DNA from: Candidatus Nitrosotenuis chungbukensis
GTDB lineage: Archaea; Thermoproteota; Nitrososphaeria; Nitrososphaerales; Nitrosopumilaceae
Reading direction: 5' to 3'
Assembly (NCBI RefSeq): GCF_000685395.1
Contig: NZ_AVSQ01000012.1
Span: forward strand, 62,001 to 126,000
DNA: 64,000 nucleotides
Made by a program: the position numbers and the translations under genes
Shown here: piece after piece, positions 1,805-36,972 of the stretch
How the letters are laid out: the number at the start of each line of letters is the position of its first letter
How positions within the stretch are numbered: the first letter of the stretch is position 1
The notes under the pieces: model-generated
The model's database searches: none
Told to the model about the DNA's origin: nothing
The model's input: the letters and a program-made list of their open reading frames with translations, nothing else

Positions 1805-1818
1805 TGGATTCATGCCTA

Positions 1819-1836
1819 ATTTTCAGGACTGATAAT
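1819..1836 (+). promoter_or_regulatory. 18-bp element upstream of RNA candidate 1
   Basis: ATTTTCA-ggac-TGATAAT. No protein start lies 40-43 bases downstream. The 5' arm of a long hairpin begins exactly 41 bases on, and a TATA-like TTAAATAC (1848-1855) sits between. Confidence 0.65.
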
Positions 1837-1876
1837 CATAATTTTCGTTAAATACTGATAATATGATAATATGGCT

Positions 1877-1941
1877 AAATTGGAAGGAGTGGCCTGATTC
1901 TGTTTCCCCCAACTAATCCTTGACACTCTCTTCCAGTTTTT
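1877..1941 (+). ncRNA. Candidate small RNA 1, hairpin with oligo-U end
   Basis: Bases 1877-1891 pair with 1924-1939 in a stem of 10 plus 5 base pairs, broken by one bulged U at 1929. The stem includes one G-U pair that only works on the plus strand. The loop is 32 bases and holds a run of five C. The stem runs directly into TTTTT (1937-1941), a plausible terminator. TATA (1848-1855) and the 18-bp element (1819-1836) are spaced exactly as at protein genes, placing the transcript start at the first base of the stem. No ORF fits. Homology to a known RNA family was not recognised. Confidence 0.55.
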
Positions 1942-1949
1942 AATAACAT

Positions 1950-1967
1950 GGTTTCAATTATGAAAAT
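1950..1967 (+). promoter_or_regulatory. 18-bp element upstream of cupredoxin-like gene
   Basis: GGTTTCA-atta-TGAAAAT, 41 bases before the ATG at 2008. This favours that ATG over the TTG two codons earlier. Confidence 0.6.
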
Positions 1968-8692: not shown

Positions 8693-9121
8693 CTATTTAA
8701 CTATCATCACAGGGATGCGCGACTTGTGAAGAACTGCGCTTGATACACTTCCTAGAAATAATTCCTTTACTCGTCCTTTTCCATGTGCACCAATTACTAT
8801 CAAATCAAATTTTTTGGATTTTGAAATATTTATGATGTGTTCTACCGGACTTCCAAAAGTTATCGTGTACTTGAACACAATTCCTTTTTTTGCTGCACGA
8901 ATTTTTGCATTTTCCATGAATTTTCCAGCTTCTTTTTTCTGATAAATTTCATACGGCACAACAGATGGCATAAAGCCAGTGGGGAGAAATGAGATCGCGT
9001 GAACTCCTAAAATGGTAGCATGGCAAGCACGAGCTATCTCAATTGCACTATCTAATGCAGCAAATGATGTCTTAGATCCGTCCATCGGAACAAGAATTTT
9101 TTTAATTTTATTTTGAATCAT
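8693..9121 (-). CDS. Universal stress protein, ATP-binding type
   Basis: 142 residues; KKILVPMDGS at the start and GAHG-x9-GS at the end (GAHGKGRVKELFLGS), the ATP-binding signature. First gene of a two-Usp operon. Its promoter has a TATA-like stretch at about 9139-9150 and the 18-bp element 43 bases upstream. Confidence 0.88.
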   Translation of the reverse strand: MIQNKIKKILVPMDGSKTSFAALDSAIEIARACHATILGVHAISFLPTGFMPSVVPYEIYQKKEAGKFMENAKIRAAKKGIVFKYTITFGSPVEHIINISKSKKFDLIVIGAHGKGRVKELFLGSVSSAVLHKSRIPVMIVK

Positions 9122-9163
9122 GATATAGAGTTTTTCTTATTTTAATTTAAACCTCTTGCTAAG

Positions 9164-9181
9164 ATTATCACATCTAATAAT
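9164..9181 (-). promoter_or_regulatory. 18-bp element upstream of leftward USP operon
   Basis: ATTATCA-catc-TAATAAT; one core base differs (TAA for TGA). Near edge 43 bases from the Usp ATG. Confidence 0.6.
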
Positions 9182-9186
9182 TGAAA

Positions 9187-9204
9187 ATTCTCATCTTTGA
9201 AAAT
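9187..9204 (+). promoter_or_regulatory. 18-bp element upstream of RNA candidate 2
   Basis: ATTCTCA-tctt-TGAAAAT. The first hairpin of the RNA candidate starts exactly 41 bases downstream, with a TATA-like TTTAACTA at 9216-9223 between. Confidence 0.65.
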
Positions 9205-9244
9205 CGTATTCTACCTTTAACTACGATTAATGTGTATGTTATCT

Positions 9245-9340
9245 TGCACAAGAGTGATTTTGTGCATATAGACGGGAATGCTGGGTGTGATAACCCAATG
9301 TAAGGTACTGCGGTATGTTATGTTGTAGCATTCTCGTCTT
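9245..9340 (+). ncRNA. Candidate small RNA 2, two-domain structure
   Basis: Hairpin 1 is a perfect 7-bp stem (9245-9251 with 9260-9266) around an 8-base loop. Domain 2 is a 13-bp stem (9270-9282 with 9327-9339) enclosing a small hairpin (9283-9286 with 9293-9296) and about 30 further bases. The single non-Watson-Crick pair in the long stem is G9275-U9334, allowed only in plus-strand RNA. A short U-rich run follows. TATA and 18-bp element spacing put the transcript start at the first paired base. The next gene starts at 9398. No coding frame fits; no known RNA family was recognised. Confidence 0.55.
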
Positions 9341-9397
9341 TTCCAATTTTCGAAATCTTCATTACTGTTAAATGCCCTATTCTGACATTCAAACTAG

Positions 9398-9823
9398 ATG
9401 AAAGGTGATTTTTCAAAAATTCTTGTCTGCTGTGACGGATCAAAATATTCCGAAAATGCAATCAGAAAGGCATGTAGTCTGGCAAAAAAATACAATTCTG
9501 AACTAACGTTAATTCATGTGGTTGATAGGACACGAAAATCCGATGTTTTTGCTGGAAATGAATACGCCCAAATTCTAAGAAGATATGCAAAATCCACCCT
9601 TGAGAAAGCCAAAAAAATAGCAAACGAAGAAGGTTTTGAGCCAAAAATAATCACAAAGGAAGGGAATGTGGCAAACGAGATAATCAAGTTCTCAAAAGAG
9701 GCAAAAATAGACCTTCTAGTTGTTGGAAGTAAGGGGCTTGGAGCAGTATTGCAGTTTTTCCTTGGTAGTGTCTCATCAAAAATTGCAAATCATGCTTTAT
9801 GCTCTGTCTTGATTGTGAAATGA
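9398..9823 (+). CDS. Universal stress protein, ATP-binding type
   Basis: 141 residues; KILVCCDGS at the N-terminus and GSKG-x9-GS near the C-terminus (GSKGLGAVLQFFLGS). The VCCDGS variant with paired cysteines is unlike the VPxDGS of its paralogues. Stand-alone promoter region downstream of RNA candidate 2; only a very degenerate copy of the 18-bp element could be aligned there. Confidence 0.87.
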   Translation: MKGDFSKILVCCDGSKYSENAIRKACSLAKKYNSELTLIHVVDRTRKSDVFAGNEYAQILRRYAKSTLEKAKKIANEEGFEPKIITKEGNVANEIIKFSKEAKIDLLVVGSKGLGAVLQFFLGSVSSKIANHALCSVLIVK

Positions 9824-9880: not shown

Positions 9881-10363
9881 GTGGTAGCAATTCCAATTAA
9901 AGTAAAACAGATGATTCAAAGACAACAAATAATCATTGTTGGCTCCGCAGATAGGTTGGGACTGCCAAATGTCTCTCCAAGAACTAGCTTTTACTTGGAT
10001 CCAGATGGCTCAATTTATTGGCTAGAACTTTTCAAACACAAAACGTTTAGAAACTTTCAAAAGAATCCATGGTGCAGTGTGACTGTATTTGAGAAAAAAA
10101 AGTTAACCGGTTATCAGATAAAGGGAAAAATAAAAATCATATCTGATAAAACAACAAAACAAAAAGTCACAATCAGAGTTATAGATAAACTCACTAGGCT
10201 TCATAAACAAAGAATCCTAAAGCATGCAAATTACAAAACGATAAACGTCATCAAATTTACAGCACAGATCCTCTACTCATTAAACCCGAATAAAATTGCC
10301 AATTCTCCCTTGAAATTGGATGCAAATAATATATCTCTAAAAGCTGCAAATACGCAATGGTAA
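9881..10363 (+). CDS. Pyridoxamine 5'-phosphate oxidase-like flavin protein
   Basis: A 160-residue split-barrel protein. The order QQIIIVGSADRLGLPNVSPR, then IYWLELFKHKTFRNFQKNP and SVTVFEKKKLTGYQIKGK, matches the FMN-binding PNPOx-like superfamily, which includes F420- and heme-using members. A basic C-terminal extension of about 40 residues is unusual. GTG start by spacing to TATA. The C2H2-like gene follows 9 bases on. The substrate is unknown; a paralogue sits at 21881-22306. Confidence 0.78.
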   Translation: MVAIPIKVKQMIQRQQIIIVGSADRLGLPNVSPRTSFYLDPDGSIYWLELFKHKTFRNFQKNPWCSVTVFEKKKLTGYQIKGKIKIISDKTTKQKVTIRVIDKLTRLHKQRILKHANYKTINVIKFTAQILYSLNPNKIANSPLKLDANNISLKAANTQW

Positions 10364-10651: not shown

Positions 10652-11023
10652 TTAGTGCAATCGCTTGTAAACTGTCTTAAATTCCTCTGCAATAGTATAT
10701 GCCAAATTTTGCAAATGTGTTATTTCAATCATACTTGTTTTCCCCCTTGCAATCTGTCTTAGTAATGTCATGCACTGGTGTATCTTATTGTGGCTGTCAT
10801 CAGTTGCATCATTTGGTCCGTCAACTATTGTCAGCATACGAAAACATACGTTAAACTCCAAACAAAATTGTAAAATTATGTGCTCCCAATCTTTTGCAGT
10901 TGTAGGGATCCCCATCCCATTAGCTAACGTCTTGAATTCATTTTGTCGTGTTTCCAGCAATAGATCAAGTGATTCTTTTGCCTTTTTTGCCTCAAACCCT
11001 TCGAGTTTTTCTAGTATTACCAT
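10652..11023 (-). CDS. Conserved hypothetical helical protein
   Basis: A 123-residue soluble protein, predicted mostly alpha-helical (KKAKESLDLLLETRQNEF; MTLLRQIARGKTS). Cysteines at two central positions are not spaced as a metal site. No family recognised. It has its own promoter: AT-rich TATA region at about 11040-11060 and an 18-bp element 42 bases before the ATG, so it probably belongs to the same regulon as the divergent CBS gene. Confidence 0.6.
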   Translation of the reverse strand: MVILEKLEGFEAKKAKESLDLLLETRQNEFKTLANGMGIPTTAKDWEHIILQFCLEFNVCFRMLTIVDGPNDATDDSHNKIHQCMTLLRQIARGKTSMIEITHLQNLAYTIAEEFKTVYKRLH

Positions 11024-23297: not shown

Positions 23298-23420
23298 CTA
23301 TCTGTTTTTTGCAAATGCTCCTTGGTGATCGGTAAGGCAACATTTACATTCTTTTTTATAACATTCCTGTATTGATTCGTGGCCACACGATCCGCAATCA
23401 CAAGTTCTGTCTTCTCTCAT
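23298..23420 (-). CDS. 40-residue cysteine-rich protein
   Basis: A short frame from ATG to TAG encoding a protein with seven Cys and two relevant His. CDCGSCGH is followed by CYKKECKCCLTDH, i.e. C-x-C-x2-C-x2-H then C-x4-C-x-C-C-x3-H. This is a compact zinc- or Fe-S-binding layout like small Cys-rich proteins of thaumarchaea. Reality is supported by the dense metal-ligand pattern and by a promoter element at exactly the usual 41 bases. No function can be named. Confidence 0.7.
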   Translation of the reverse strand: MREDRTCDCGSCGHESIQECYKKECKCCLTDHQGAFAKNR

Positions 23421-30407: not shown

Positions 30408-30740
30408 CTAATCTGACATATTAGGAACTATTTCGACTTCGACGTTACCCCCGTTAAAGACCGATGTCATTGCCTTTACCTTGCTTTTGTATAGAAAATG
30501 CTTTTTTCCTTCCGAGGTAATCGAGCCTGAGATGCCAAGCAGCTTTGAATCATGAAGATTCTGCAATCTCCTGTAAACGGTGCTGATAGGAATCCTGCAT
30601 TCTGCACTGATCTCGATTGCCGACTTTGGAACGTTCATGGTCGATTCTATTATTGACCTACAGTACTTGTCTGACATTATTTCAAGGATTGTGTCCTTTT
30701 TCTCGTCGTCAACTTTTCTTCCTACAAATTGTATTTGCAT
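30408..30740 (-). CDS. Winged-helix transcriptional regulator
   Basis: 110 residues from the internal ATG. SAIEISAECRIPISTVYRRLQNLHDSKLL is an ArsR/MarR-like winged helix at about 35-75, preceded by a short N-terminal strand and followed by a beta wing (GSITSEGKKHFLYKS) and a C-terminal strand. A TATA region (TTATTATATTAAAAA on this strand) and a perfect 12-bp palindrome lie upstream, so autoregulation is plausible. An ATG 16 codons upstream is an alternative but would sit inside the palindrome. Confidence 0.78.
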   Translation of the reverse strand: MQIQFVGRKVDDEKKDTILEIMSDKYCRSIIESTMNVPKSAIEISAECRIPISTVYRRLQNLHDSKLLGISGSITSEGKKHFLYKSKVKAMTSVFNGGNVEVEIVPNMSD

Positions 30741-30784
30741 GGCATGGGTTGATCGTTTTTTAATATAATAAGTAGGATTGCTTT

Positions 30785-30796
30785 GCATTGCAATGC
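30785..30796. promoter_or_regulatory. Perfect 12-bp palindrome, putative regulator operator
   Basis: GCATTGCAATGC lies 45 bases from the leftward winged-helix start and 40 bases from the rightward small-gene start. It occupies the place where other promoters carry the 18-bp element. Confidence 0.5.
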
Positions 30797-36657: not shown

Positions 36658-36972
36658 CAATGAATCGAATGGCAAAAAGCATTCCTAGGGTATGATGATT
36701 TTAGATTTCTAGAATATGAATCTGAAATCTCCCTTATTCTTAATAGATCTCAATTTGAATTCTGGATAATGTAGGACAAAAACATAATTTGTTTTACAGA
36801 TGACTAGTCACTGGCACGCGTGATTAGGTGTTGATCAGTAAGCATTGGTCTACCAGCCTTGTTGCTATTGGCATATCGTGATTTTTGTGCCAGTGACATC
36901 TATGAATAGCACAAGCAAACCGTCTAATTCAATCCCAATTCTTAAGTATCATATGCAAAATCGTTTGTTAAA
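36658..36972. other. Long intergenic region with two inverted repeats
   Basis: A 7-bp hairpin stem occurs at 36703-36709/36724-36730. A perfect 11-bp inverted repeat, GTCACTGGCAC at 36807-36817 and its complement at 36887-36897, encloses 69 bases with a small inner hairpin (TTGG-tcta-CCAG). No ORF of note. It may encode a structured RNA; strand not determined. Confidence 0.4.

Follow-up and report, generated by a model that had tools for sequence, protein, structure and literature searches.

Positions 9245–9342 on the plus strand of the window, by which we mean the whole 64,000-nucleotide stretch of DNA analysed here, are predicted to form a gene, probably for a structured non-coding RNA of about 100 nt. 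This RNA appears to represent a previously undescribed family: Rfam 15 contains no family that matches it at gathering score (the best chance matches have E-values above 1), and in the open-licence literature we found a published description neither of this RNA nor of any stress-regulated small RNA in Nitrosopumilaceae, a family that ranks with the most abundant archaea worldwide. From sequence, the gene is probably discrete, non-essential and trans-acting within a stress regulon of Usp, CBS and Hsp20 genes. A family that comes with a calibrated model, a promoter, an operator and natural loss mutants makes its expression, partner and role directly testable; moreover, the gene exposes a large regulon governed by a palindromic operator.

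Fold, homologs and covariation

The fold of the plus strand of 9225–9345 has two neighbouring parts, the 5′ hairpin P0 and, following it, the stem P1 with two hairpins inside:

9245–9266 (9245–9253 with 9258–9266), plus strand: 5′ hairpin P0, at the predicted transcript start
9270–9339, plus strand: conserved three-way-junction core (model R2), 26 modelled pairs
9270–9282 with 9327–9339, plus strand: P1, 13-bp stem with one G·U pair
9283–9286 with 9293–9296, plus strand: P2, enclosed by P1
9298–9302 with 9319–9323, then 9305–9308 with 9313–9316, plus strand: P3 (span 9298–9308/9313–9323), enclosed by P1

A first-pass annotation of this DNA had placed a 7-bp hairpin at 9245–9266 and a 13-bp stem at 9270–9282/9327–9339, and both are present in the sequence at these coordinates, as is the plus-strand G·U that it named as the only non-canonical pair of the longer stem. 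The 7 bp of P0 (9245–9251/9260–9266) are lengthened to nine by G·U and A–U pairs. While the 13-bp stem does enclose a hairpin as described, it holds two of them, P2 and P3, rather than a single small one, and the core is a three-way junction. The fold exceeds what chance would give: 9240–9345 on the plus strand reaches −44.1 kcal/mol (z = −6.3), none of 200 shuffles is equally stable, and compensatory changes run across 44 homologs. The minus strand of the RNA region folds worse (−27 vs −44 kcal/mol for the plus strand).

BLAST returned nine homologs within the genus Nitrosotenuis, and the RNA is present in 12 of its 17 genomes. The covariance model search of related genomes that had been proposed as a check gave matches in 44 of 250 family genomes with model R1 and in 47 of 250, from 10 of 22 genera (Nitrosotenuis, Nitrosotalea and others), with the core model R2, the E-values of both models being rough by construction. 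Genomes carry a single copy each; the one departure is a genome in which the same site also gives a weak antisense echo. Samples of 400 genomes of the class and 300 of the phylum yielded no homologs beyond the family Nitrosopumilaceae; two 21-nt matches in another family (L019 and L020), confined to the start of the query and without alignment beyond it, were discarded.

In the 44-sequence alignment, which was fitted to the structure and is thereby biased toward pairing, 92% of cells are paired, two-sided changes occur at 22 of 32 pairs, and 199 cells are double-changed, the shuffles giving 70; when the partners are slid by 1–3 columns, only 32–51% stays paired. A MAFFT alignment of the core from 44 sequences, annotated manually with the structure, is 92.2% paired with 95 double-changed cells vs 35 when shuffled, and a small single-genus MAFFT alignment gave the same outcome. 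The compensatory changes exceed shuffled and slid controls, as a structured non-coding RNA should show. They are two-sided in all nine pairs of P0, a hairpin that keeps its pairing while its sequence is nearly free (0.55 bits per column). P1, P2 and the upper part of P3, on the other hand, are conserved in sequence as well (1.4–1.7 bits per column), compared with 0.6–0.7 in most junction columns. One homolog (L055:1168–1251 in genome G001) has an intact P1 with shortened P2 and P3, and could be either a natural minimal variant or a case of early decay.

Two rival readings concern the nature of the element. The first places the feature at the level of DNA, as a cruciform or inverted repeat or as the remnant of a mobile element, with no function as RNA. 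It would account for the long inverted repeat and for a position that differs between genera, but is barely credible: the covarying pairs include plus-strand G·U, tetraloops of the GNRA and UNCG type occur among the homologs, promoter spacing is fixed, and the copy is nearly always single. In addition, one exact short-loop signature, which fits the short-loop homologs and not the long-loop ones of Nitrosotenuis, has no match in 2.9 million viral contigs; a viral origin was considered on the same signature and set aside. The second reading, a divergent member of a housekeeping class (SRP RNA, an H/ACA or C/D guide, RNase P RNA), we regard as very improbable. Archaea do have many guide RNAs that are sometimes hard to recognise; however, inspection of the alignments by eye revealed no K-turn, no guide boxes (C/D, ACA) and no ribozyme core, no Rfam guide family matched even at an E-value of 1, and neither did the archaeal SRP or RNase P RNA models. 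Furthermore, with matches in only 47 of 250 family genomes the RNA is missing from most members of the family, unlike housekeeping RNAs.

A separate strong candidate for a structured RNA lies at 36803–36902 of the window (plus strand), where a 12-bp stem, GTCACTGGCACG/TGTGCCAGTGAC, surrounds hairpins at about −37 kcal/mol. It was found in six genomes of the genus and is 98–99% identical in two relatives, in which the surrounding intergenic DNA is 87–96% identical.

Genomic neighbourhood and losses of the RNA

The 3′ side of the RNA and its flanking genes are arranged as follows:

9339–9350, plus strand: U-rich 3′ end, probable terminator, TTTT after P1
9367–9373, plus strand: GTTAAAT, TATA-like box belonging to the downstream Usp gene, whose ATG follows after about 25 nt; kept in Nitrosotenuis homologs
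9398–9823, plus strand: downstream Usp gene, neighbour (PF00582, E = 4.6e-34)
8693–9121, minus strand: divergent Usp gene, neighbour (PF00582, E = 1.8e-31)

TTTT follows within 30 nt of P1 in 36 of 44 loci against a background of 29%, and the U-rich tract 9339–9350 is a probable terminator. The position between two Usp operons given by the first-pass annotation applies in Nitrosotenuis, where the same two Usp genes flank the RNA, but is not the rule: in other genera the flanking genes, on either strand, encode CBS, Hsp20 and other stress proteins as well as PRPP synthetase, a dehydrogenase and others, with Usp, CBS or Hsp20 making up most of the flanks overall.

The RNA has been lost in two closed genomes. 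In G013 (L207:7400–7530) a decayed copy lies between the same Usp genes; it still has the operator, the TATA-like sequence and fragments of P0 and P1, P2 and P3 are gone, and the remnant folds no better than shuffles (z = +0.75). In G012 (L208:4880–5030) the RNA is deleted, whereas operator-like sequences and both Usp genes are kept. The PNPOx-like gene close by (9881–10363 in the window) is missing from both genomes as well, and this joint absence raises the possibility of a functional link.

The neighbourhood decides on a further alternative, namely that the element acts in cis, as a leader or attenuator for the Usp gene that follows it. In Nitrosotenuis a same-strand Usp gene does lie 55 nt downstream of it; yet that gene has its own TATA-like box beyond the U-tract, the gene 3′ of the RNA varies between genera and is sometimes on the opposite strand, and the RNA has been lost where the Usp gene was retained. 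We therefore rejected this alternative as extremely improbable. Because its neighbours change between genera and because it was lost while the Usp genes stayed, the RNA is, as judged by genome comparison, a discrete and dispensable gene and not a Usp leader. Its distribution is patchy (33 of 131 good-quality family genomes with core model R2), and its role is therefore accessory.

Operator, promoter and stress regulon

Upstream of the RNA lie two copies of a palindromic operator, GATTATCA-N4-TGATAATC, and a TATA-like box:

9163–9182, unstranded: operator copy 1, GATTATCACATCTAATAATT, with a spacing that fits the divergent Usp gene 8693–9121
9186–9205, unstranded: operator copy 2, AATTCTCATCTTTGAAAATC, the copy of the RNA gene, conserved ahead of the RNA at a constant distance in most homologous loci
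9216–9223, plus strand: TATA-like box TTTAACTA, 10 nt after operator copy 2

The motif reported upstream of the RNA was thus found again at 9186–9205, together with the second copy at 9163–9182, which on the minus strand is followed by TTTAAATT and then, at 42 nt from the operator, by the ATG of the Usp gene. Across 43 RNA loci, 72% have an upstream operator scoring at least 12 of 16, compared with 2% of shuffles. The stems are conserved where the motif is, which had been named as one of the points on which the candidate would stand or fall: covariation extends over 10 genera, and the operator ends 9–11 nt before the TATA-like box in 36 of the 43 loci. This placement relative to TATA is the one seen in the protein genes of the surrounding island and marks the RNA gene as a member of their regulon.

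Several of these protein genes are leaderless, their start codons lying about 40 nt past the operator, and P0 begins at the same distance; the proposal that the first stem starts at the predicted transcript start fits this geometry. Where P0 is absent (Nitrosotalea-type homologs), the operator sits at −60 relative to the core, compared with −85 elsewhere; operator and TATA are thus about 25 nt closer, which implies that the promoter follows the transcript start. Sequence signals for an own promoter and terminator are conserved across the RNA loci.

The RNA sits in a region of about 35 kb that is rich in Usp, CBS, Hsp20, PNPOx-like and P-II genes and also holds a TFB paralogue. When up to 3 mismatches are allowed, the operator palindrome gives 40 strand-matches in the 64-kb window, vs 4.9 expected, and 9 of the 13 genome-wide sites of a stricter form fall in the 35-kb region 1800–36700. 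By its sequence distribution, the palindrome marks a large regulon in this part of the window. Operators are more numerous in good-quality genomes that have the RNA, with a median of 10.5, than in those that lack it, with a median of 5 (Mann–Whitney p = 5e-7, a value that ignores kinship); relatedness is handled only partly, by a test within one genus (g9) that has many RNA-bearing genomes, where the excess persists (p = 0.003).

A search for a partner by co-occurrence in 34 RNA-bearing and 102 other genomes, in which kinship was ignored, revealed three candidate genes that are enriched with the RNA and none that is specific to it. A small HTH protein (30408–30788) occurs in 33 of the 34 vs 69 of the 102, and is accordingly enriched but not exclusive; this is compatible with a candidate regulator of the regulon, or with both merely marking stress-rich genomes. 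The others are a protein of unknown function (10652–11023; 32 of 34 vs 75 of 102) and the PNPOx-like protein (9881–10363; 27 of 34 vs 36 of 102).

Two further loci of the island were recorded. At 1818–1960 (plus strand) an operator (1818–1837) and a TATA-like sequence, GTTAAATA, precede a long imperfect hairpin; the locus is conserved in the two closest relatives examined, could not be clearly matched in two remoter ones, and is possibly the other RNA candidate of the first-pass annotation. At 23298–23420 (minus strand), flanked by the TFB paralogue and a P-II gene, lies an unlisted Cys-rich ORF of 40 amino acids, MREDRTCDCGSCGHESIQECYKKECKCCLTDHQGAFAKNR, whose DNA is conserved in genomes G005 and G021 (72–75%); in G021 this ORF is directly upstream of the RNA (L126:9991–10134).

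Proposed mode of action and known systems

With moderate confidence we lean towards the following mechanism: an RNA of about 100 nt belonging to the stress regulon would be transcribed from its own promoter and act in trans, its core likely binding a protein, for which it would be a decoy or scaffold. The operator directly upstream of TATA is common to Usp, CBS and other genes of the island, and the RNA should therefore be made when the regulon is on. Archaeal activators usually bind upstream of the TATA box, and the position of the operator suggests an activator rather than a repressor. Since the core keeps both sequence and pairing whereas P0 keeps pairing only, the folded core would be recognised by something sequence-specific: we infer that the rigid three-way junction binds the protein, while the optional hairpin P0 may serve as an end-protecting cap.

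The main rival, possible but on balance unlikely, is a trans-acting antisense RNA that would be made with the stress regulon and silence or activate mRNAs by pairing, with P1 or a loop as the seed. Most stress-regulon small RNAs of other organisms act in this manner, and the P1 strand GACGGRAAYGC is strongly conserved and could pair with a target if unfolded. However, about 52 of the 67 core positions are held in very stable helices, the unpaired junction columns are variable, the tetraloops vary freely, and the RNA alignment contains no conserved single-stranded stretch of at least 7 nt and no exposed conserved seed. Conservation that resides in helices in this way favours protein binding over antisense pairing. 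Some other mechanism in trans, in which the RNA would, for instance, imitate a nucleic acid ligand bound by the transcription apparatus or regulate via the neighbouring TFB paralogue, is improbable: the paralogue lies in the same island, but its proximity to the RNA does not hold in every RNA-bearing genome examined.

Carried further than protein binding as such, the proposal would make this RNA the first protein-sequestering riboregulator of ammonia-oxidising archaea, titrating a regulator or an RNA-binding protein under energy or oxygen stress within a global Usp/CBS/Hsp20 regulon, analogous to 6S and CsrB yet unrelated to them; in this extended form it is tentative and rather doubtful.

The archaeal RNA resembles the bacterial RNAs of the 6S and CsrB/RsmZ type in being short, independently transcribed and highly structured, and an action on protein is what we infer for it. 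They belong to another domain of life, however, and we found no relation in sequence or structure: neither the multiple GGA motifs of CsrB nor the open-promoter-like bulge of 6S was recognised. With the bacterial antisense stress sRNAs it has in common an own promoter under the operator of a regulon, an intergenic location, a non-essential role and a patchy distribution, but it differs from them in having no exposed conserved seed. Tan1 (PMC5069720), which is abundant in marine Euryarchaeota, is likewise a structured archaeal RNA of unassigned function that is confined to one lineage; on its description it is set apart by its phylum and its length (229 vs about 100 nt). Finally, Y RNAs, from which the archaeal RNA differs in that it has no Rfam match, share with it a sequence-conserved stem joining both ends, a U-rich 3′ end and a variable accessory hairpin.
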